Source: Acidimicrobiaceae bacterium (GTDB lineage Bacteria; Actinomycetota; Acidimicrobiia; Acidimicrobiales; RAAP-2). From it: a stretch of 58,822 bases of DNA. Positions 47,385-58,559 of the stretch are shown piece after piece. The stretch is taken from NCBI GenBank assembly GCA_003142095.1, contig PLON01000074.1:1-58822 (forward strand). Direction: 5' to 3'. A program made the position numbers and the translations under genes. Under the pieces are notes generated by a model. That model saw only the letters and a list, made by a program, of their open reading frames with translations. It was not told the DNA's origin and ran no database searches. Positions within the stretch are counted from its first letter, which is position 1. Each line of letters begins with the position of its first letter.

Positions 47385-47966
47385 GTGCACACGCCCGCAA
47401 CCACCAATGATCTCTTTCGGCTGTACGAATCAAAGGGCCACGAACCCTACGGTGAAGCGCTTACCCAAACCGAGCACGCGCTGCAGTGTGCGGCCCTCGC
47501 CAGAGAAGAAAACGCCAAGGACGCGATGATCGTGGCCGCGCTCTTTCACGACGTGGGACACCTCATCGTCGACATTCAAAACGGCGAGAACGTGCGCATC
47601 GATGAAGTCGACGACGATCACGAAGCCGTGGGAGCTCGCATTCTGTCACCCCTCTTCGGCCCCGCGGTCGCTCAGCCCGTCTCGTTGCACGTCACGGCGA
47701 AGCGCTGGCGCTGCACGCGCGAACTCGCGTACTACGACCGACTCTCGGAAGCGTCGAAACTGTCGCTCAAAGCACAGGGTGGTCTCTTGAGCGACGAGGA
47801 CTGCCTGCGCTTTGAAGAACACCCGGGCTTTCCTGACGCCCTTGCGCTACGCACCTGGGACGACGAGGGAAAGGTTGTCGGACTCGAAGTAGGAACGCTC
47901 GACGACTACGTCGGAATTGTCAATTCGTTGGCCGTGGCGTGGTCACGAGGACGTCACGAGCATTAA
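47385..47966 (+). CDS. phnZ: PhnZ-type HD-domain mixed-valent diiron oxygenase (phosphonate cleavage)
   Basis: This 193-residue protein resembles PhnZ, which oxidatively cleaves 2-amino-1-hydroxyethylphosphonate to glycine and phosphate. Expected iron ligands align: H31 (TEHALQ), H55-D56 with H59 (FHDVGH), H79, H102 and D159 (TWDDEGK). The substrate lysine is K106 (HVTAKRW). Also conserved are YYDRLSEASK and the QGG loop. Start GTG 47385 has a GAGAGGAG site. Its 3' end overlaps the convergent ABC ATPase gene by 47 bases. No PhnY partner is present. Confidence 0.88.
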   Translation: MHTPATTNDLFRLYESKGHEPYGEALTQTEHALQCAALAREENAKDAMIVAALFHDVGHLIVDIQNGENVRIDEVDDDHEAVGARILSPLFGPAVAQPVSLHVTAKRWRCTRELAYYDRLSEASKLSLKAQGGLLSDEDCLRFEEHPGFPDALALRTWDDEGKVVGLEVGTLDDYVGIVNSLAVAWSRGRHEH

Positions 47967-49023
47967 CGCTCACGTCAACGCGTGTACCCAGCTCGAGGTC
48001 ATCCGCGTGAGTGCTGCGTACGTCGACGCGTAGGTTCGCCCCGGCGATGCCGACGCCAATGCGCGTCGTCGCCCCAAGAAAACTCCGGTGCGTGACGACG
48101 CCGAGTCCGCTCGGGTTGACCACGACGTTGAGGTCCTCGGGACGCAGGAGGGCTTCCAGTTCGCCCGCGGGCACCGCGTTGAGGTCACCGCGGATCGGTA
48201 CCTCGCGTCCGAGTACTTCAACGTGATCACCGTGGCGGGTCACGGCGACGCGACTCGAGACACCGACAAACTGTCCCACGAAGGGTGTCGCGGGCTGTGA
48301 GTAGAGGACCGACGGTGTGGCCACCTGCTCAACGCGTCCTTGGAGCATGACGCACACGCGATCAGCCATGGACATCGCCTCTTCTTGGTCGTGCGTGACG
48401 AAGACCGTGGTGATGGCGAGACGCTGTTGGAGCGCACGAATCTGATCGCGTAGTTCGGCGCGAACCTTGGCGTCGAGTGCGGAGAGCGGCTCGTCGAGGA
48501 GCAGCACGCGCGGTTCAATGGCGAGGGCGCGCGCGAGTGCGACGCGCTGTTGCTGTCCGCCCGACAGCTGATGGGGATACTTGGTCACGTGATCCGCCAG
48601 ACCGACCAAGTCCAACAGTTCACTGGCCTTAGCGCGGCGCTGCGAGGCCCGCTGGTGGCGAATCTGCAGGCCGAAGGCGACGTTGTCGCGTGCGTTCATG
48701 TTCGGAAAGAGCGAGTAACTCTGAAAGACCATTCCCATGTCGCGACGTTGCGCCGGCACGTGCGAGACGTCCTTCCCGTCAACGAGCACGCGGCCGTTGT
48801 CGGGACGATCGAAGCCCGCGAGCACCCGCAGTGCGGTGGTCTTGCCGCACCCTGAGGGACCGAGCAGCGCCACGAGTTCGCCGGGCGCGATGTCCAGCGA
48901 AAGTCGGTCGAGTGCCGTCGTTGCGCCAAAACGACGCGTGAGGTTGTCAAAGACAACGGGGGCGCCCCCCAGAGACTGACTGTCAGAGCCAATCGTCGTC
49001 AGTGAGTCGGTTGCCAGGGCCAT
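47920..49023 (-). CDS. phnT: Phosphonate (AEP-type) ABC transporter ATP-binding protein
   Basis: This 367-residue ATPase has Walker A GPSGCGKT, VFQSYSLFPNM, the signature LSGGQQQR, Walker B VLLLDEP and the H-loop FVTHDQEEAMSMADR. C-terminal TOBE regions follow. It resembles PotA/PhnT proteins of 2-aminoethylphosphonate importers. ATG 49023 overlaps the permease stop (TAATG) behind an AGGAGGAG site. The substrate assignment comes from the linked catabolic genes. The gene symbol is by analogy. Confidence 0.8.
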   Translation of the reverse strand: MALATDSLTTIGSDSQSLGGAPVVFDNLTRRFGATTALDRLSLDIAPGELVALLGPSGCGKTTALRVLAGFDRPDNGRVLVDGKDVSHVPAQRRDMGMVFQSYSLFPNMNARDNVAFGLQIRHQRASQRRAKASELLDLVGLADHVTKYPHQLSGGQQQRVALARALAIEPRVLLLDEPLSALDAKVRAELRDQIRALQQRLAITTVFVTHDQEEAMSMADRVCVMLQGRVEQVATPSVLYSQPATPFVGQFVGVSSRVAVTRHGDHVEVLGREVPIRGDLNAVPAGELEALLRPEDLNVVVNPSGLGVVTHRSFLGATTRIGVGIAGANLRVDVRSTHADDLELGTRVDVSVNARDVLVTTPRPTN

Positions 49024-49877
49024 TAGCTCCTCCTAGAGTTTCGAGACTGTGAGCGATCCAACGTAACAATGAGCGTCAGCACTACGCAGGTCGCGAGCAA
49101 GGCGACCATTGCGACCAACGTAGTAATCCGGGGGTTGTCGGTGGTGGGAGCGTTGTAGATCCAGACCGGAAGCGTGGTCCAGTTGTCGACGTTCGCGATC
49201 GTGAACTCGCCAAAGACCAACGCGATCGTCAACACGGACGCGGACATGAGCGCGGAGCGCAAGTTCGGAACGAGAACCCGCCAGATCGTGGAGATCCAGC
49301 CCGAACCGAGCGACCTGGACGCCTCCACCAAAGTTTTGAGATCCAGCGCCCCGAGGCCAGAGTCGAGGGAGCGGTACACGTAGGGCATCGCCAAGATGAC
49401 GTAGACGATCGCGAGCAGATACTGCGACGACCTCAACCACGCGGGTGCCGACTCCAACACGCCCGTGGCGTAGGCGATGGGGGGAATGATGATCGGCAGA
49501 ATGGTGATCACTTCCATCACCCGTCGAAAACGAGGCATTCGCAGGTGCACGTAGATGACGGTCGGCACCATGAGCAGCATGACTCCCGCCATGGTGATCA
49601 CGGCCATTTGCGTGGAGAGCCAGAGAGCCGAGATGAAACCGGGGGCGGAGGCGATCTGACTGAGTGGGGTGAGCGAGAAGCCTCCTGTGGGCTTTTGTAA
49701 GGAGAAGGCCATCGCCGCGTAAAACGGGACAATGAAGTACGCCGCGGCGAGCACGAGAATGACGCCGCGACCCCAGCGAATCTGGCGACGTCGTCGAGTT
49801 ACCGGGACGTCCGCCCTAAACGGCTGGTCGATGGTCGAGGGATCGGCAACCAGGGTGCCGAGTTCTAGCGAAGCCAT
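49023..49877 (-). CDS. phnV: ABC transporter permease, PhnV-like
   Basis: This 284-residue inner-membrane permease has six predicted helices and the EAA loop region KTLVEASRSLGSGWISTIWRV. It forms the pore with the other permease. It starts at 49877, 13 bases inside the upstream permease gene, and overlaps the ATPase start, so the operon is tightly coupled. Assignment to the phosphonate importer is by context. Confidence 0.8.
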   Translation of the reverse strand: MASLELGTLVADPSTIDQPFRADVPVTRRRRQIRWGRGVILVLAAAYFIVPFYAAMAFSLQKPTGGFSLTPLSQIASAPGFISALWLSTQMAVITMAGVMLLMVPTVIYVHLRMPRFRRVMEVITILPIIIPPIAYATGVLESAPAWLRSSQYLLAIVYVILAMPYVYRSLDSGLGALDLKTLVEASRSLGSGWISTIWRVLVPNLRSALMSASVLTIALVFGEFTIANVDNWTTLPVWIYNAPTTDNPRITTLVAMVALLATCVVLTLIVTLDRSQSRNSRRS

Positions 49878-50803
49878 CGCGACGTCCTTCGCCGTAGGAG
49901 AACATATCCAACGACGGTAATGAGCAAGATAACGATCATCGCGAAGGCCAGGGCGTAGGCGATGTTGTTCTCACCAGCGATCACGTTGCCCTGCAAGATG
50001 GAGCCGATTTGAATCGGCGTGATCGAGATGGTGCCCGTGGTCAACGCCTCGGCGGTGGCGTAGGCCGAAAACCCGCTGCCGAAAAGCAGAAACATGCTGC
50101 CCAGGATCGCCGGCGTCAGCACCGGTATGCCCACGTGGCGCCAGTAGCGCCACCGCGACGCACCGAGGTTCTCCGCCGCCTCGCGCCAGGCGGGGTGCAG
50201 CCCCGCGAAGGCGGGGGTGATGATGAGCACCATGAGCGGAATTTGGAAATACATGTAGACGAAGGCCACGCCCCAGAACTTGTAGAGGTCGAAGCCGTGA
50301 CTCCACGGATCGACCCCGATGGCGTTCAGCCACTTCGTGGCGACGCCCACAAAACCGAAGGACGCAATGAACATGAACGCGAGGTTGACGCCGCCGAACT
50401 GCGCGAGAACACCGGACGTGGCCGCCGAGATGCGTTTGAATGGCGCGTGCGAGGACGTTGAGATGGCGTAGGCGATGAAGGTCCCGAGGATTCCGGGAAT
50501 GATCGCCGTCACCAGCGCCAATTTGAGACTCGTCTCAAATCCGGTGCGAAACTGGCCGCCCGACAGAATGGTGTGAATGTTTTGCCAGGTGAAATGACCT
50601 GAGTTCGATCGAAACGCGTAGTTGATAATCGCGACCGTGGGCACCCCGAGTACCAAGATGACGTAGGACAAAAAGGGCAACACGGGAGCGCTGGTTCGCA
50701 ACCTACGAACCAGCGCTCCCCCGCCACCAGATCCGCTCTTTCCGTTCAGGCTCGAGACCCCGAGTGGGGGCGTTCGAGAGGCGGAATCAGAGAGGACCGT
50801 CAT
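49865..50803 (-). CDS. phnU: ABC transporter permease, PhnU-like
   Basis: This 312-residue permease begins with a cytoplasmic Ser/Gly-rich segment, then six helices. Its EAA loop reads WREAAENLGASRWRYWRHVGIPVL. Unlike the iron-type system earlier in the window, the two permease domains are separate genes here. It follows the binding-protein gene by 14 bases. Confidence 0.8.
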   Translation of the reverse strand: MTVLSDSASRTPPLGVSSLNGKSGSGGGGALVRRLRTSAPVLPFLSYVILVLGVPTVAIINYAFRSNSGHFTWQNIHTILSGGQFRTGFETSLKLALVTAIIPGILGTFIAYAISTSSHAPFKRISAATSGVLAQFGGVNLAFMFIASFGFVGVATKWLNAIGVDPWSHGFDLYKFWGVAFVYMYFQIPLMVLIITPAFAGLHPAWREAAENLGASRWRYWRHVGIPVLTPAILGSMFLLFGSGFSAYATAEALTTGTISITPIQIGSILQGNVIAGENNIAYALAFAMIVILLITVVGYVLLRRRTSRWLR

Positions 50804-50817
50804 GATTCAGGGCTCGG

Positions 50818-51948
50818 CTAGCTTCCGCTGACCGCTGAAGCCCAGTTCGCGTCCACCGTTGCGCCGGCCGCAGTCACCTGAGCTTGCGTCGGCAACGTGA
50901 GCGCCGCCGCCGGAGCCGCGGGCAGAGCCGCGACCCACGTCTTGTTGACGGTGTTGTTCGCCGTCATGGCCGCCAACTCAATGGGCCGCGCTTGGCCCTG
51001 GAGGAACAGGTTCTGACCGGTGACCGAGTACAAGTACTCCTCCCAGAGACGAGCGGCCGCCGGGTCCGGTGCATCTTTGGTGATCGCCTGGGTGTAGTAC
51101 GCCGCAATCGTGCCGTCCGTAGGAATGACCAACTTCCAGCCGGGCACGCTCGCCGCGACGCCGCCTTCCAAGTAGTCCCACCAAATAAGGATTGGCGTCG
51201 CACCCGAGGCGGCCGTGGCCGCCGTACCACCGGGTACGAAGTTGCCATCCTTGTTCAGGGTCGCGAAGAAGTTGATGCCGGGCTGAATGTTGCTGAACGA
51301 TCCGCCGTTGGCGATCGACGCCGCCCAGACGGCGTAGAACGCCGCCGACGCGGAGGTCGGGTCCTCGTTAATGGCGACCTCGTTCTTGTACATCGGGTTC
51401 GTCAGCTGCGCGAAGGACGTAGGACACGTGGTGACGATCTTGGTGTCACAGCCGATCGCGACGTAGCCGCCGTAGTCGTCGTACCAGCGCCCACTCGCGT
51501 CTTTGCCCGCGGTCGGGATGTCGGCCCAGGTCTGCACCTTGTACGGAGCCCACAGGTTCTCGTTGCCGGTGGCGTAGCTCGTACCGACGTCCACGACGTC
51601 CGGCGCGTCCCCGCGACCCTTTTGCGTGTTAATGGCGGTGATCTCTTCAGCGCTCGAACCGTTGGGGTTCTGGTCGTTGATCTTGATGCCGTACTTCTTG
51701 GTGAAGTCCTTCATAATGGCGCCATAGTTGGCCCAACCCGAAAGAGGAATGGTAATCACGTTGACGTGACCCTCTTTCTTCGCGGCTTTGATCAGCGCGC
51801 TCATTCCGCCGCCGGCCGTCGCCGAGGTCTCCTTCGACCAATTAACCGTCTTCGTCGCCGCGTTCGCGCCGCCAGCGACAGAGAGCGTCGTGAAGACTGT
51901 CCCTACCAGGCCGGCCGCGAAGGCGATCCTTAGTTTGTTTGAAATCAC
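50818..51948 (-). CDS. phnS: Phosphonate-type ABC transporter substrate-binding protein
   Basis: This 376-residue binding protein has a signal peptide (LRIAFAAGLVGTVFTTLSVAG, cleavage after ANA). The mature part has the two-lobe type-1 fold (VNVITIPLSGWANYGAIMKDF, APDVVDVGTSYA, LIWWDYLEGG). It is the first gene of the importer operon. Start is GTG 51948 with TAGGAGG about nine bases upstream. Family relatives transport 2-aminoethylphosphonate or other small anions. The exact ligand is not visible. Confidence 0.8.
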   Translation of the reverse strand: MISNKLRIAFAAGLVGTVFTTLSVAGGANAATKTVNWSKETSATAGGGMSALIKAAKKEGHVNVITIPLSGWANYGAIMKDFTKKYGIKINDQNPNGSSAEEITAINTQKGRGDAPDVVDVGTSYATGNENLWAPYKVQTWADIPTAGKDASGRWYDDYGGYVAIGCDTKIVTTCPTSFAQLTNPMYKNEVAINEDPTSASAAFYAVWAASIANGGSFSNIQPGINFFATLNKDGNFVPGGTAATAASGATPILIWWDYLEGGVAASVPGWKLVIPTDGTIAAYYTQAITKDAPDPAAARLWEEYLYSVTGQNLFLQGQARPIELAAMTANNTVNKTWVAALPAAPAAALTLPTQAQVTAAGATVDANWASAVSGS

Positions 51949-51985
51949 GCCTAAAGCCTCCTAAAAATGAGCGCACCTCGTTGAT

Positions 51986-52017
51986 GACTCGCCACGAGAG
52001 TAAGAGTCGCGAGTAAG
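51986..52017. promoter_or_regulatory. Repeat cluster in the importer promoter region
   Basis: The arms ACTCGC and GCGAGT and a direct repeat (CGAGAGTAA and GCGAGTAAG) crowd into 32 bases, 40-70 bases upstream of the binding-protein start. This is the only structured element in the 134-base gap between the two phosphonate gene groups. It is a plausible operator, without a known regulator match. Confidence 0.3.
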
Positions 52018-52082
52018 CGCAACGTGACGTCAGCGCGCAGCGTCGGTGTGCGGTCGTGAAATTTCTTGGGAGCGTTGAGTGA

Positions 52083-52751
52083 CTATTGCGCGACGAGAAT
52101 GTCAAGTCGCGCGAGATCTACAACGGTGTCGAGAACGCAGTCCGCACCGCTCTCGAGCAGTCGCGCTTCATCGTCGGTACCGCTTAAGACGCCAACGCAC
52201 TGGCCCACGCCCGCGCGGCGTCCGGCCTGCATGTCCGAGGCCGTGTCGCCCACCACCATGATCGTCTGAACCGCACTGACGCGCGAGCGAAGGGCGCAGA
52301 GAAGAATCATGTCCGGTGCCGGACGACCACGTCCCGCATCCGCCGGCGAGACGCGCAGACTAAACAGTTCCGACCAGTCGAGAATGTCAATCAAGACTTC
52401 GCGCGTCGCCGGGGAGAATCCCGTCGTCAACGCCACCGCGATACCGCGGCTCTTCAGTTCTTCCACGGCTTCTCGAGCTCCGGGTATTTCACTCACCCCG
52501 ACTTCTTGGGCCGCTGTCACAAAATGGCGCTCGAATGCGTCATTGGCGGCGTTCGCCCGAACGTCGAAGAGTTCGGTGAAGACTTCGATCTTCGACTGAC
52601 CCATCGTCTCGATGACGTATCCTTCCGCCTCGCGCGCGTCCTCGCCCGTGACACCGAGTTCGTCGATCGTACGACGGAACGCGTCGAGCACCAGGCCCTG
52701 GTCGTTCACCGTCGTACCGGCCATGTCAAAGCAGATCAACTCAATGGTCAT
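52083..52751 (-). CDS. Phosphonatase-like HAD hydrolase (PhnX-like)
   Basis: This 222-residue HAD protein has the distinctive phosphonatase motif FDMAGTTV (nucleophile D9) in place of DxDx(T/V), and VVGDTASDMQAGRRAG near the C-terminus. The cap contains MGQSKIEVF. K54 aligns with the Schiff-base lysine of true phosphonoacetaldehyde hydrolase (MGxxKI). Families of this type cluster with an FAD oxidoreductase, as here. Its ATG overlaps that gene's stop. A role in C-P bond cleavage of an aldehyde intermediate is inferred. Confidence 0.85.
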   Translation of the reverse strand: MTIELICFDMAGTTVNDQGLVLDAFRRTIDELGVTGEDAREAEGYVIETMGQSKIEVFTELFDVRANAANDAFERHFVTAAQEVGVSEIPGAREAVEELKSRGIAVALTTGFSPATREVLIDILDWSELFSLRVSPADAGRGRPAPDMILLCALRSRVSAVQTIMVVGDTASDMQAGRRAGVGQCVGVLSGTDDEARLLESGADCVLDTVVDLARLDILVAQ

Positions 52752-53878
52752 ATAAAACTCTCCTCCGCGATGGCTGGCGCCAACGTCATTCCTCGTCCGC
52801 CCGCGCCGGTAATGGCGGTGACGCCGCGCGCGAGATCGCGGCGGTAGTAAATCTCGTCGACGGCGGGCACCACCTGGTGATACACACCACTCCAGCGTCG
52901 CTCGATGGCCGGCAAGTCATCACCGATCAACTCACGAGCCGCCTGCACGATAAGCGTCATGGGCGCGTCGTAGGTCTCGAAGAGCCCCGGCTCATCCGCC
53001 TCGTGAGTATCGCCGATGGTGAGTCCTCCGTGTAGTCGCTGCTGGCACAGCAGCTGAACGGCGTAGCGACTCGCGAGCGACTCCTGTGGATCGAGCAGTT
53101 CGCTAGCGTCCGCTCGAAATCCTGGGTAGTAGCGAAAGGAGTCGCCGTTCGCGACCGACGTTGTTAGCGTTCGCTGCAAGGGCTCGGTCTCGGCCATGTT
53201 GAGGCGAACGCGACGTAGCGGTTCTCCTTCGAACAGTTCGGCCGCGAAGCCACTGATGGTGGCACCCACGCAGAGCCACACCTGATCGCCGCGATGGTGG
53301 ACGCCGCGATGATCGACAACCTCGTGGTCCGCCATCCCGACCAGTTCTCGTCCCGCTAGGTACTCGTAGCGTCCCGTCGCGGCCATGGCGTCACGTAACG
53401 CTCCGAGCGCGACGCGCGATTCAACGGCCGCGTCGCGATCGCAAAGGAGGCCGGCCTCGAACGTGCCGCGCAGCGCGGGGTTTCGCTTCACCACGTCGTT
53501 GCGACTCAGCAGTTCAAAACCGCGTTCGTCCGCGTCGTCGCGCGCGAGGGCGCGCTTGGCAACCTGCATTTCGGCGTCGGTATTCACCAACGACAGCGAG
53601 CCGTTCGCTCGAAACCCGACGCCGGGAACACGCTCGCCAATCTCCTGCCACAGTTCGCGTGACCGCAGCGCGAGCTTGAGTTCCGCGCCCGACGCGCGTC
53701 CGCTCACCCAGATCAGTCCGAAGTTGCGCACGGTTGCGCCATGGGGGGCGAGGTCGCGCTCAAGATGCACAACCTCAGCCCCGCGCATCAGCGCGAAGAG
53801 TGCGTGGACGGTGCCAAGAACGCCAGCTCCCACCACCACCGTGCGCTGGCCGTCGAGGGTTCCGTCGTCGTTCAACAC
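52748..53878 (-). CDS. FAD-dependent oxidoreductase of the phosphonate-associated (TIGR03364-like) family
   Basis: This 376-residue DAO-fold flavoenzyme has the FAD-binding GAGVLGTVHALFALMRG near the N-terminus and GAGGRGMTLAPAIAEE at the C-terminus. DAO enzymes oxidise amines. Relatives beside PhnX-like hydrolases are thought to convert aminophosphonates to phosphonoacetaldehyde-type products. The frame runs back over tadA, so the start is GTG 53878, seven bases after TAGTTT and behind GAGG. It overlaps the hydrolase gene by four bases. Confidence 0.85.
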   Translation of the reverse strand: MLNDDGTLDGQRTVVVGAGVLGTVHALFALMRGAEVVHLERDLAPHGATVRNFGLIWVSGRASGAELKLALRSRELWQEIGERVPGVGFRANGSLSLVNTDAEMQVAKRALARDDADERGFELLSRNDVVKRNPALRGTFEAGLLCDRDAAVESRVALGALRDAMAATGRYEYLAGRELVGMADHEVVDHRGVHHRGDQVWLCVGATISGFAAELFEGEPLRRVRLNMAETEPLQRTLTTSVANGDSFRYYPGFRADASELLDPQESLASRYAVQLLCQQRLHGGLTIGDTHEADEPGLFETYDAPMTLIVQAARELIGDDLPAIERRWSGVYHQVVPAVDEIYYRRDLARGVTAITGAGGRGMTLAPAIAEESFI

Positions 53879-53937
53879 TGTCCTCAAACTAAACGTGACA
53901 CGTTGCGCACGCGTGACCGATCGGTGTACGTTCGTCG

Positions 53938-54393
53938 CTATTCCCCGCGACGCTCGACAAAAAACTCGCGCAGCAGTGTCGCCGACTCGTCGGCCAACAC
54001 GTCGTACGTGAGCGACACCTCGTGTAGGAGCCGAGGATCGCTCAAGAGGTTGTAGCGCGAACCCACCGCGCCCGCTTTCTCGTCGAGCGCACCGATCACG
54101 AGACGCGCGACGCGAGCGTTGAGAAGCGCGCCGGCGCACATCGCGCAGGGCTCGAGCGTGACGTAGACCGTCACATCGTCCAGGCGCCAGTGACCTCGCT
54201 GGCGCGCCGCTTCGCGCAACGCCACGATCTCGGCGTGAGCGGTCGGGTCGTGATCGAACTCGCGCCGATTTTCGCCACTCCCGACGACAACGCCGTCCGC
54301 CACGATCACACAACCAATCGGCACGTCGTCGTGAGCCTTGGCGCGCGACGCCTCCACGAGGGCCTCTCGCATAAAGCGTTCGTCGTCACCCAT
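53938..54393 (-). CDS. tadA: tRNA-specific adenosine deaminase
   Basis: This 151-residue deaminase makes inosine at tRNA wobble position 34. The zinc-site motifs are TAHAEIVALR and PCAMCAGALLNAR. The start ATG 54393 (MGDDERFMREAL) is the family N-terminus. A GTG one codon upstream stands six bases after TACGAT and may be the leaderless start. The long upstream frame covers tRNA-Ser and is not coding. Confidence 0.95.
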   Translation of the reverse strand: MGDDERFMREALVEASRAKAHDDVPIGCVIVADGVVVGSGENRREFDHDPTAHAEIVALREAARQRGHWRLDDVTVYVTLEPCAMCAGALLNARVARLVIGALDEKAGAVGSRYNLLSDPRLLHEVSLTYDVLADESATLLREFFVERRGE

Positions 54394-54463: not shown

Positions 54464-54551
54464 GGAGGGGTGCGAGAGCGGCCGAATCGGGCAGTCTCGA
54501 AAACTGCTGTGTCTACGGGCACCGTGGGTTCAAATCCCACCTCCTCCGCCA
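54464..54551 (+). tRNA. tRNA-Ser (CGA anticodon)
   Basis: A class II tRNA. The acceptor GGAGGGG pairs with CTCCTCC (one G-U). The anticodon loop is CTCGAAA with anticodon CGA, and the variable arm is long. CCA is encoded. A terminator hairpin follows three bases later. Confidence 0.97.
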
Positions 54552-54553
54552 GC

Positions 54554-54585
54554 GAAAGACGGGTGACGTTTGTCACCCGTCTTTC
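54554..54585 (+). terminator. Terminator after tRNA-Ser(CGA)
   Basis: A perfect 14-bp stem (GAAAGACGGGTGAC and its complement, loop GTTT) starts right after the tRNA 3' end. The descending arm ends CTTTCCCATTT, giving a weak T-rich tail. Confidence 0.75.
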
Positions 54586-54652
54586 CCATTTCCTCGCCAC
54601 ACCCGGGCCAGTACGCTGGATTTGTCGCACGACCGCCAACTCAGGAGATCTC

Positions 54653-55990
54653 ATGGTTTCGTCACTCACCACGCACGTGGGCACCGAGCGCAAAGTCATC
54701 ACCGAACTGCCCGGACCTAAGTCCCAAGAGCTCCACGAACGCCGCAAGGCCGCCGTTAGTGCGGGACTCACCGTTGGATTCCCCGTGTACATCGATCGCG
54801 CCGAAGGCGCCATCTTGGTCGACGTCGACGGAAACCAGTTGCTCGACATGGGTTCGGGCATTGCGGTCACCGGCATCGGCCACGCCGCACCCGCTCTCGT
54901 GGACGCCGTCAGTCGCCAGGTAGCGAGCTTCACGCACACCTGCTTCATGGTGACGCCCTACGAAAGCTACGTCGAAGTGTGCGAAGCGCTCAGCGAACTG
55001 ACCCCCGGCGATCACGCGAAGACTTCGGCGCTGTTCAACTCAGGCGCCGAAGCGATTGAGAACGCGGTAAAGATCGCACGACTCGCCACCGGCAAGAGTG
55101 CCGTCATTGTCTTTGAACACGCGTACCACGGGCGAACGAACTTGACAATGGCTCTTACCGCGAAGAACATGCCCTACAAGGATCGCTTCGGGCCCTTCGC
55201 ACCCGAGGTGTATCGCGTTCCCATGAGCTACCCCTTCCGAGACGGGTTGAGTGGCCCCGACGCCGCGGCGCGCGCGATCAAGATCATCGAAACCGACATT
55301 GGCGTGCACAACGTCGCCGCGCTCCTCATCGAGCCAATCCAGGGCGAGGGCGGTTTCGTCGTTCCCGCGGACGGATTCCTGCCCGCACTGTCGAAGTGGA
55401 CGACCGACAACGGCGTCGTCTTCATCGCCGACGAGATTCAGAGTGGTTTCGGGCGCACCGGTGACTGGTTCGCGGTTAATCACGAGGGCGTCATTCCCGA
55501 CATCGTCACGACCGCCAAGGGCCTCGCCGGAGGCATGCCCCTCGCGGGCGTCACCGGTCGTGCGGAGCTCATGAACGCCGTGCACGAAGGTGGACTCGGT
55601 GGTACATACGGCGGCAACCCGGTCGCGGCCGTAGCGGCCCTCGCCACGATTCAAACCCTCAAAGAGCAGAACCTGCTCGAGCGCGCGAAGGAACTCGGCG
55701 AGATCATGTTGGCGTCGCTTCACTCGCTGGCGAAGGACGTTGCCATCATCGGAGACGTCCGCGGACGCGGCGCCATGATCGCCATGGAACTCGTCCAGCC
55801 CGGCACGAAAACGCCCAACGCCGCTGCGGCGAAGGCCGTCGTGAACTACTGCCAACAGCACGGCGTGATCGCGTTGATCTGTGGCACCGACGGCAACGTC
55901 ATTCGATTGCTTCCTCCGCTGATCATTAGTGACGACCAACTCGCCGATGGTCTCGCAGTGGTCGGCGCTGGGGTTCGGTCCGTTCGCTAG
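54653..55990 (+). CDS. gabT: 4-aminobutyrate-type aminotransferase (class III, PLP)
   Basis: This 445-residue class III aminotransferase has NSGAEAIENAVKIAR, the PLP contact EHAYHGRTN, FIADEIQSGFGRTG and the Schiff-base lysine in TTAKGLAGGMPLAG. The sequence fits bacterial GabT (GABA to succinate semialdehyde), though other omega-amino acids are possible. ATG 54653 has a clear AGGAG site and TACGCT further upstream. An aminophosphonate substrate would be a guess from proximity. Confidence 0.9.
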   Translation: MVSSLTTHVGTERKVITELPGPKSQELHERRKAAVSAGLTVGFPVYIDRAEGAILVDVDGNQLLDMGSGIAVTGIGHAAPALVDAVSRQVASFTHTCFMVTPYESYVEVCEALSELTPGDHAKTSALFNSGAEAIENAVKIARLATGKSAVIVFEHAYHGRTNLTMALTAKNMPYKDRFGPFAPEVYRVPMSYPFRDGLSGPDAAARAIKIIETDIGVHNVAALLIEPIQGEGGFVVPADGFLPALSKWTTDNGVVFIADEIQSGFGRTGDWFAVNHEGVIPDIVTTAKGLAGGMPLAGVTGRAELMNAVHEGGLGGTYGGNPVAAVAALATIQTLKEQNLLERAKELGEIMLASLHSLAKDVAIIGDVRGRGAMIAMELVQPGTKTPNAAAAKAVVNYCQQHGVIALICGTDGNVIRLLPPLIISDDQLADGLAVVGAGVRSVR

Positions 55991-56024: not shown

Positions 56025-57068
56025 ATGAATCGAGGTGTAAGACGCGTGCGCACGGGGTTGCGCATTGGCGTGGGTCTCGCCGCGGGCGCGGTGATTCTCG
56101 CGAGTTGTGGGACAACCGCCGTCGCGCCCCCGGTGCACCTCAGCGGGACACCCGCACTGAGTTTTGACGTGCCCCTGACCAACGTGGCCTGCACACTGAA
56201 TGACGTGTGCGTCGCGCTCGGCACGTCGAGCGCCGGCTCGGGGCCAACCTCGGTGGCGGAGTTCTCGACACCGCACGGCGACTGGCTCAACCTCGCCCTC
56301 CCCTCGGGCCCTTCGACCTTGTTGACAACGACCGCCTGTTCTGGGTCGCAGTGTCTGATCGGCGGATCACGTCCGGGTAGTGATCTCTTGTGGCTCTTCG
56401 ACTCCCACGGAGATTCGCTCAGCGCACTCACCGCGCCGGCGCAGGGCATCGGCGTGAGCTCGTTGACGTGCAACGCACTGGTCTGCGCGATGCTCGACAC
56501 CGGCCCCGGCGGCGTGCCGCGCTTCAGCGTGAGTTCCGACGTGGGGACGACGTGGTCGACGCCCGAACCTCTCGCCTTCGCCAAGGGTGACGCCGTGACT
56601 GCGTTCTCCTGCGGAACGACCGCAATCTGCGCGCTCGGACTGATGACGCCCGCACACGTGTTTGCGCTCTACGTGACCAGCGACGTTGGTGCGACCTGGA
56701 ATGAGCAAGCGACACCGAGTTCGTGGACGACGTTGACGTCACTGTCGTGTCAGCAGCGTCGTTGCGTAGCCCTCGCCGCGACGGCGACGGCGTCGCTCCT
56801 CGTGCGATCGTCGACTTTTACGCGAACCTGGAAAGTAACGACTTTGACGCACCGGGCGAGCGCACTCGCCTGTACGCCACTCCAGCAATGCGTCGTCGTG
56901 GGTCAGCGATCGGATGACGACCCCTGGCTCGCCATGGTGCACGACAAAAAGACCACCGCTGTGAAGTTGCGCTACGTCCCCTCCCCTCTTCTCGACGTGG
57001 CGTGCGGATCAAAGGTCTGCGCCGCGATTGGCATCACGACTCTTCTTAGTGTTCCTTCCAATACATAA
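56025..57068 (+). CDS. Secreted lipoprotein with a predicted seven-bladed Cys-pair beta-propeller
   Basis: This 347-residue lipoprotein has a lipobox (VILASC, Cys near residue 28). It then carries seven repeats of the form x-C-(4-6)-C-hydrophobic, for example ACTLNDVCVALG, ACSGSQCLIGG, TCNALVCAMLD, SCGTTAICALG, SCQQRRCVALA, ACTPLQQCVVVG and ACGSKVCAAIG. Each pair is likely a disulphide within one blade. Similar repeats occur in actinobacterial sialidase-like propellers. ATG 56025 follows AGGAG. The ligand or enzyme activity is unknown. Confidence 0.85.
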   Translation: MNRGVRRVRTGLRIGVGLAAGAVILASCGTTAVAPPVHLSGTPALSFDVPLTNVACTLNDVCVALGTSSAGSGPTSVAEFSTPHGDWLNLALPSGPSTLLTTTACSGSQCLIGGSRPGSDLLWLFDSHGDSLSALTAPAQGIGVSSLTCNALVCAMLDTGPGGVPRFSVSSDVGTTWSTPEPLAFAKGDAVTAFSCGTTAICALGLMTPAHVFALYVTSDVGATWNEQATPSSWTTLTSLSCQQRRCVALAATATASLLVRSSTFTRTWKVTTLTHRASALACTPLQQCVVVGQRSDDDPWLAMVHDKKTTAVKLRYVPSPLLDVACGSKVCAAIGITTLLSVPSNT

Positions 57069-57746: not shown

Positions 57747-58559
57747 TCAGCCCTGGTCGAGGGCTACGCGCAACTGTTCAGCGACGCCCGTCCAGCCCTT
57801 GTACGACTGCACCGACGCGGGGGCGGTGTCGAGGGAGTGCAGCAGTGTCGACACGAAGGTGTCGTCACGCTCGCGAAGCGTCGCGGCCGACGTGACGTGC
57901 GTGCGAATCGTAAATACCACCGCGTTCGTGCGCGGCAGTGCTCGCAGTGTCTGTCGTTCCACGCGGAAATACCAGTCCTCGAGTTTTCCGCCGGGGCTGC
58001 GGCGCGCGACCGCGGGTTGGTACAAAGCGGGGCTGTCGAGCAACGTCCAGTTGAGTCGCCAGAACGCGCGATCCGGTTTCAACCGATCGAAGAATGCGTT
58101 CGTGGGACGCGCGAGTTCGTCGTCGTACCCCGGCACCGGCCGGTGAATGTCATCGAGGGTCGCGCCAATCTTTGTCGCTAAGTTCCAGCGAGAGGGGAAA
58201 CAGACGCACGCCGCGCGCAGTCGCCACACGTCGTCGCGCACCAGCACACAGAGATCTTCTTGTACCAGTCGACTGGCCGCGACGATTGCGTGCTCACGTT
58301 CGTGGGGTGGCGTCGCGACACCCCAGTGGTGCGCACGAAGGTTCTCGCGGATCTCAGCTAGCAACTCGAGGCTCGCCTCGTCGCCTTCGGGCTCTGTCGC
58401 CACCACGACGTCGTAGCTCTCATCTAGCAACTGCGTCTTTAAGGCGATTTCCTCTCCGTAGTGTTCGTCGATCTCGAGCCACGCGGCGAGTTCCAGTGGA
58501 CGCAGCCCCATCGCGAGACGCCATCCCCCCGCGTCGAGTGGCACGTAGGGGAACGTCAA
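57747..58559 (-). CDS. DUF3445 (heme-dependent oxidative N-demethylase-like) protein
   Basis: This 270-residue protein has the DUF3445 block CVCFPSRWNLATKIGATLDDIHRPVPGY, then the DRLKPDRAFWRLNW region. The family includes the alpha subunit of a heme-dependent oxidative N-demethylase that releases methyl groups from dimethylamine, but many members are uncharacterised. The start is TTG 58559, 6 bases after the stop of a small membrane-protein gene with which it is probably coupled. No other demethylase subunits are seen before the window ends. Confidence 0.85.
   Translation of the reverse strand: MTFPYVPLDAGGWRLAMGLRPLELAAWLEIDEHYGEEIALKTQLLDESYDVVVATEPEGDEASLELLAEIRENLRAHHWGVATPPHEREHAIVAASRLVQEDLCVLVRDDVWRLRAACVCFPSRWNLATKIGATLDDIHRPVPGYDDELARPTNAFFDRLKPDRAFWRLNWTLLDSPALYQPAVARRSPGGKLEDWYFRVERQTLRALPRTNAVVFTIRTHVTSAATLRERDDTFVSTLLHSLDTAPASVQSYKGWTGVAEQLRVALDQG

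Follow-up and report, generated by a model that had tools for sequence, protein, structure and literature searches.

The window (the whole stretch of DNA analysed, 58,822 nucleotides from an Acidimicrobiaceae bacterium) carries a gene encoding a predicted lipoprotein of 347 amino acids, in which 14 cysteines form seven short-spaced pairs, one for each blade of a predicted beta-propeller. A preliminary description, made from the DNA letters, had placed this gene at 56025–57068, and these coordinates are exact. The features of the gene and of its two neighbors are as follows; the cysteine pairs are assigned to blades by the alignments and the structural model described below.

54470..55990, + strand: gabT, 4-aminobutyrate transaminase, upstream gene (TIGR00700 and NF004714 above cut-off; the true start is probably after 54470)
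56025..57068, + strand: gene of the predicted stapled propeller lipoprotein, 347 a.a. (ATG at 56025, stop codon at 57066–57068)
56025..56105, + strand: predicted signal peptide, residues 1–27 (basic start, hydrophobic core, LAS directly before C28)
56106..56108, + strand: lipobox cysteine C28, expected lipidation site (Cys in 30/30 best-scoring and 45/47 aligned orthologues)
56136..56165, + strand: N-terminal strand region, residues 38–47, with a conserved G41-x-P43 (G41 in 46/47, P43 in 45/47)
56190..56210, + strand: blade 1 pair, C56–C62
56337..56354, + strand: blade 2 pair, C105–C110
56469..56486, + strand: blade 3 pair, C149–C154
56532..56555, + strand: Asp-box motif SSDVGTTW of blade 3, residues 170–177 (within the profile match to sialidase 3h6j/2w38, residues ∼163–231)
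56610..56630, + strand: blade 4 pair, C196–C202
56676..56699, + strand: Asp-box motif TSDVGATW of blade 4, residues 218–225 (T218 in 47/47, G222 in 46/47, W225 in 45/47)
56748..56765, + strand: blade 5 pair, C242–C247
56871..56891, + strand: blade 6 pair, C283–C289
56973..56981, + strand: YVP motif, residues 317–319, in the loop into blade 7 (Y317 in 47/47, V318 in 44/47, P319 in 47/47)
57003..57020, + strand: blade 7 pair, C327–C332
57114..57725, + strand: DUF2510 protein of 203 a.a. with hydrophobic stretches, downstream gene (PF10708 above cut-off)

An AGGAG sequence ends three bases 5' of the ATG of the propeller gene; gabT ends 34 bases ahead of the gene, and the DUF2510 gene begins 45 bases after it. 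On the minus strand, the region 47920–54313 holds an apparent 2-aminoethylphosphonate cluster (ABC transporter subunits, a PhnX-like hydrolase and a TIGR03364-type oxidoreductase; none of the NCBIfam matches named for phosphonate reaches its cut-off), and 57747–58559 encodes a protein similar to the alpha subunit of haem-dependent oxidative N-demethylase (PF11927, E 3.7e-59), which is matched in 14 of 15 related loci.

The residues L25-A26-S27-C28 fit [LVI][ASTVI][GAS]C, given as the bacterial lipobox motif in the portion of PMC8038367 covered here. The lipobox is conserved (L128 is an orthologue without its cysteine), which agrees with the earlier reading of the protein as a lipoprotein, the lipidation being predicted. 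All 14 cysteines of the mature part (319 residues after the lipobox Cys) are within seven C-x(4-5)-C pairs (56/62, 105/110, 149/154, 196/202, 242/247, 283/289 and 327/332), with 49, 44, 47, 46, 41 and 44 residues between successive first cysteines. The seven repeats of the preliminary description thus hold, with steps of 41–49 residues, but its spacer of four to six residues does not: the spacers of the window protein are four or five. Seven such pairs arose in one of 100,000 composition-preserving shuffles of the mature sequence, a count that leaves the regular spacing out of account.

All 15 cysteines (lipobox included) are invariant in the 30 best-scoring orthologues. We also aligned 47 sequences: the 30 best scorers, 15 weaker ones, and L049 and L050 from genomes G169 and G039 (genome G027, with two contig-end fragments, is omitted). 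Each propeller-cysteine column has Cys in 46 or 47 of these 47 sequences, and all seven pairs are found in 46 of them; the remaining one (L116) starts at a contig end. L050 has longer spacers that shift three Cys columns, with its seven pairs all there, and in four others (L120, L122, L123 and L125) the blade-5 spacer is three residues: the pattern counts six pairs, and 14 cysteines are present in each. Counted directly, the doubtful rows have seven pairs each except L116, with spacers of three to eight residues.

AlphaFold2, given the window protein and 15 orthologues (from Acidimicrobiaceae or Acidimicrobiales MAGs), produced a seven-bladed beta-propeller with a mean pLDDT of 85.5 and a pTM of 0.81; residues 1–33 are the sole segment with pLDDT <50. 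The DSSP strand list has seven units of four strands, the last with three C-terminal strands, and from it we take the N-terminal strand (near residues 38–47) to complete blade 7 in the model. In all seven units strand A ends with the first cysteine, and strand B begins with the second. Structure prediction therefore returned the beta-propeller that had been proposed, and the sequence count and the model agree in pairing the cysteines, one pair per blade; neither of the results named in advance as refuting, a fold other than a propeller and cysteines outside pairs, was obtained. Foldseek matches in the PDB include Sec12 (E 3.4e-9), DAIP (1.6e-8) and Ycf48 (2.3e-8), and VIA-align matches include CylK (Z 27.5) and Sec12 (Z 25.8); DAIP is not among the best 50 VIA-align rows listed and may stand further down. 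We take these four to be propellers or proteins with propeller domains, and a fold in common with them is no proof of function.

The conservation differs among the elements of the fold: the mean entropy is 2.17 for the loops inside the Cys pairs (among the most variable elements of the orthologues), 2.26 for the B-C loops, 1.47 for the D-A loops and 1.03 for strand B. Among the residues of the more conserved D-A loops are W234, Y317-V318-P319 and several prolines. In the usual propeller convention, these loops and the highly variable B-C loops are on one face, so that no clear whole conserved binding face was found. The only charged positions kept in at least 28 of 30 orthologues are D220 (in an Asp box) and R261; no other arginine reaches this level (R9 is found in 25 and R166 in 24), and no histidine reaches 24 of the 30 best-scoring orthologues. 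The earlier remark that no active-site residues stand out is borne out in these 30 orthologues, where a conserved catalytic set is absent, and an enzyme is unlikely because so few charged residues are conserved.

The two SxDxGxTW-type motifs point to the Asp-box propellers, and one to three Asp boxes are found per member across 30 members. The window protein misses the Pfam cut-offs of BNR_2 (PF13088; 16.4 vs 31.4 bits) and Sortilin-Vps10 (PF15902; 14.9 vs 33), and neither PF14870 nor NF010237 matched it at E ≤1. Among the 30 members, weak matches at E ≤0.1 were obtained to BNR_2 in 16, to BNR (PF02012) in 16 and to PSII_BNR (PF14870) in one. By its two motifs and its profile matches to sialidases, the window protein is related to the Asp-box (BNR/Ycf48-like) propellers, yet it is no Pfam member; we use 'related' because its Pfam scores are below the curated cut-offs.

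Within the genus, 47 out of 61 genomes (its own included) have a match to the propeller gene and 14 have no clear match; one propeller match was counted per genome, and second rows, weak rows and genome G045 (E 0.003) were dropped. Peat is a frequent origin of the close relatives (palsa, bog or fen occurs in the titles of 11 out of 15 MAGs). A scan of the genome_contigs collection with the single window protein found no relative, whereas a closer alignment of 10 rows did find relatives; a scan of viral_contigs gave no match. The DUF2510 gene is downstream in 15 out of 15 related loci and gabT is upstream in 14, the other locus (L045) ending at a contig end. Three further loci (L089, L090 and L092) keep gabT and the DUF2510 gene without the propeller gene. 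Because of these three loci and the 14 genomes without a match, the propeller gene is dispensable. Genomes without it are somewhat smaller (mean 1.88 vs 2.18 Mb; Mann–Whitney p 0.03 on rounded sizes).

At the level of the order, 55 out of 298 genomes match the orthologue profile at E 1e-4, and among them are long propeller-like proteins (25 loci, L051–L075) that match it down to E 4e-23. Like the window protein, they have one Cys pair per repeat, and the number of pairs is mostly 7 or 14: in 17 out of 25 loci the count of C-x(4-6)-C pairs is exactly 7 or exactly 14, though the counts are provisional because most of these ORFs remain open on one or both sides of the locus. The other eight comprise L051 and L054, whose repeat span contains 28 cysteines, three ORFs left open where the locus ends (L052, L056 and L060), and three that do not simply fit the rule of 7 or 14 (L065, L070 and L072). 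Unlike the window protein, a single-propeller lipoprotein, many of the long relatives contain the set of seven repeats twice, and some carry extra regions. Four long relatives were scanned against Pfam: three are above the BNR_2 cut-off and all four above that of PSII_BNR. One long relative, L057, has no PDB match at E 0.001. By its one short-spaced pair per repeat, the window protein can be assigned to this stapled propeller-like group of the order.

Stapled proteins are found more widely. In a sample of the phylum, a profile built from the long proteins matches 55 out of 396 genomes at E 1e-12. Among 12 of these loci, five are stapled (L098 with 7 pairs, L100 with 14, L101 with 7, L102 with 8 and L107 with 14; L100–L102 come from the window's own family) and seven (L103–L106 and L108–L110) have Asp boxes but no staples, which indicates that Asp-box propellers do not have staples as a rule. 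L098, L100, L102 and L107 have an Asp-box pattern count of 0 and three of them have a W[ND]GxxW-type motif; from these motifs, they are possibly a second stapled lineage. L103–L106 look alike by eye: they are ORFs of 398–434 residues with 5–6 Asp boxes and 4–8 cysteines, from genomes of 7.8–9.9 Mb.

Paralogues in the window's own genome were also searched for, as the preliminary description had suggested. None was found with the protein itself (E ≤1) or with the orthologue profile (E ≤1e-4), but the wider profile of the long relatives found three distant stapled ORFs and overturned the result that the genome has no paralogue. By pattern count, these have seven pairs (L111, G000:C45), nine pairs (L112, G000:C62) and four pairs (L113, G000:C26); L113 has three further longer-spacer pairs by eye, making seven. 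In L111 the seven pairs come after a long N-terminal region that includes a hydrophobic stretch. The repeats of L113 are very similar to each other, which suggests a recent amplification.

The fold, the positions and conservation of the cysteines, the conservation of the lipobox and the lack of a conserved catalytic set are supported by computation, and the evidence places the protein outside the cytoplasmic membrane; we infer, as the preliminary description had ventured, a cell-surface protein with a binding or scaffold role. The protein is probably a non-catalytic binding scaffold, a disulphide-hardened propeller tethered outside the membrane. The signal peptide would be cut before C28, and the lipidated C28 would anchor the protein to the outer face of the cytoplasmic membrane. 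The remainder would fold as one seven-bladed Asp-box-like beta-propeller, in which a putative disulphide in each blade shuts the hairpin of strands A and B, so that the disc is pinned seven times. Such a rigid scaffold may bind another protein or a cell-wall component, by analogy with the assembly factor Ycf48, and the staples may help it to withstand acid, proteases or unfolding once it is exported. A point against the non-catalytic reading is that propellers can be enzymes with unusual residues, as is CylK, the best VIA-align match. The dispensability of the gene and the lack of a clear conserved binding face also count against the scaffold reading.

The alternatives to the non-catalytic scaffold differ in what they make of the fold, the cysteines and the gene neighbors. 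It is very unlikely that the protein is a sialidase/BNR-type glycoside hydrolase acting on glycans: its best PDB profile matches are indeed sialidases (3h6j, E 4.7e-5 and 5.5e-6 with two profiles) and its only NCBIfam match is a glycosylhydrolase family (E 0.0012; 18.1 bits vs a cut-off of 175), but the matches fall at residues ∼163–231, the Asp-box blades. Sialidases have a conserved arginine triad and acid/base residues, and this GH33 set has no counterpart here, R261 being the sole arginine kept in at least 28 of 30 orthologues. Even less probable are cysteine pairs that stay reduced or serve as ligands of a metal or cofactor in place of forming staples. Paired cysteines alone do not prove disulphides, but the protein is exported, the pairs are at neighboring strand ends in the model and no histidine is kept in as many as 24 out of 30 orthologues; moreover, the window genome has two matches to VKOR and three to the DsbA family above cut-off, which make extracellular disulphide formation plausible.

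A partnership with a membrane protease is improbable as well, though it has more in its favor: placed next to a MarP-like protease on the outer side of the membrane, the propeller would recruit, present or restrain the substrate of this protease under acid or envelope stress. In L040 and L042 a gene for such a protease (labeled MarP-like from its domains) is between gabT and the propeller gene on the opposite strand, and the L042 protease (L042:3711-4865, minus strand) has Trypsin_2 and Colicin_V domains above cut-off; an aldehyde dehydrogenase-like gene comes next, on the opposite strand, in L036 (Aldedh match) and L042 (by eye). The propeller and protease genes are head-to-head in 25 out of the 36 same-genus genomes with both (G050 and G028 included), with 46–141 bases between the matched ends, a shared region that could hold a common promoter; among these is G039, whose orthologue is the most diverged (29% identity). 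Two further points in favor come from the literature, in the portions of the papers covered: MarP, an acid-resistance protease of Mycobacterium tuberculosis with four putative membrane helices, processes RipA (PMC6628586), and DAIP, a Streptomyces protein and one of the fold matches, triggers autolysis of metalloproteases (PMC4757070). Against the partnership, the genes are not head-to-head in 11 of the 36 genomes (one of them, G034, is uninformative, its propeller match being at a contig end), and the window genome itself has its protease match on another contig (G000:C70), with gabT directly upstream of the propeller gene instead. Co-occurrence in the 61 genomes is not significant (36 with both, 11 with the propeller only, eight with the protease only and six with neither; Fisher p 0.18), which weakens a strict partnership. 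Moreover, L090 and L092, which lack the propeller gene, retain a protease-like ORF with gabT on one side and an aldehyde dehydrogenase-like gene on the other, so the linkage may be an inherited gene order. The protease-partner role is a lead, with moderate support from gene order and none from co-occurrence.

A slightly less likely and more specific proposal would be novel: the protein would be the dedicated outer-face partner of a MarP-like acid-stress protease, expressed together with it from one divergent promoter in most species of the Acidimicrobiales genus, and would also be a compact, lipidated representative of a large and undescribed group of disulphide-stapled propellers made of seven-blade units. 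In the open-access literature searched, judged by titles and the openings of abstracts, we found no description of bacterial propellers that have one disulphide per blade; in a survey of repetitive propellers (PMC9218822), a term search of the main text found neither 'cysteine' nor 'disulfide'. We found no name for the exported stapled group in Acidimicrobiales.

A pair in each blade, kept in 46 out of 47 orthologues and mostly numbering 7 or 14 in the relatives, points to a rule by which nature builds tough exported scaffolds. The Cys pairs may give the blade count of stapled propellers from the sequence alone, and a stapled propeller may provide a natural template for stable designed propellers. 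The protease linkage, if functional, would mean that a kind of protease known for its part in acid survival has a further regulator.

Compared with known Asp-box/BNR propellers, the window protein has the predicted propeller and the two Asp boxes in common; unlike them, it has no such motif in its other five blades and has a Cys pair in each A-B hairpin. DAIP (PDB 5fzp and 6fhp) is likewise an exported actinomycete protein of similar length, ranking second in Foldseek with 18–19% identity, whereas the TM-score is 0.54–0.56; the profile match of DAIP to the window protein is weak (E 0.04–0.06). Ycf48, a photosystem II assembly factor, is also a seven-bladed propeller lipoprotein (E 2.3e-8 to 1.6e-7 among the Foldseek matches listed), but its identity to the window protein is 11–15% among those matches, and a photosystem partner is not expected here. 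In the portion of PMC8038367 covered, Ycf48 is a lipoprotein propeller and assembly factor, whose lipidation is described for Synechocystis and whose lipobox is present in most cyanobacteria; no mention of staples was found there. Ycf48 is the closest working analogue, alike in general design; by the tests made, the window protein is not a member of the Ycf48 family. An Asp-box-like propeller lipoprotein is a known kind of protein, of which a form with a staple in each blade, the staples mostly coming in sevens, is a variant.
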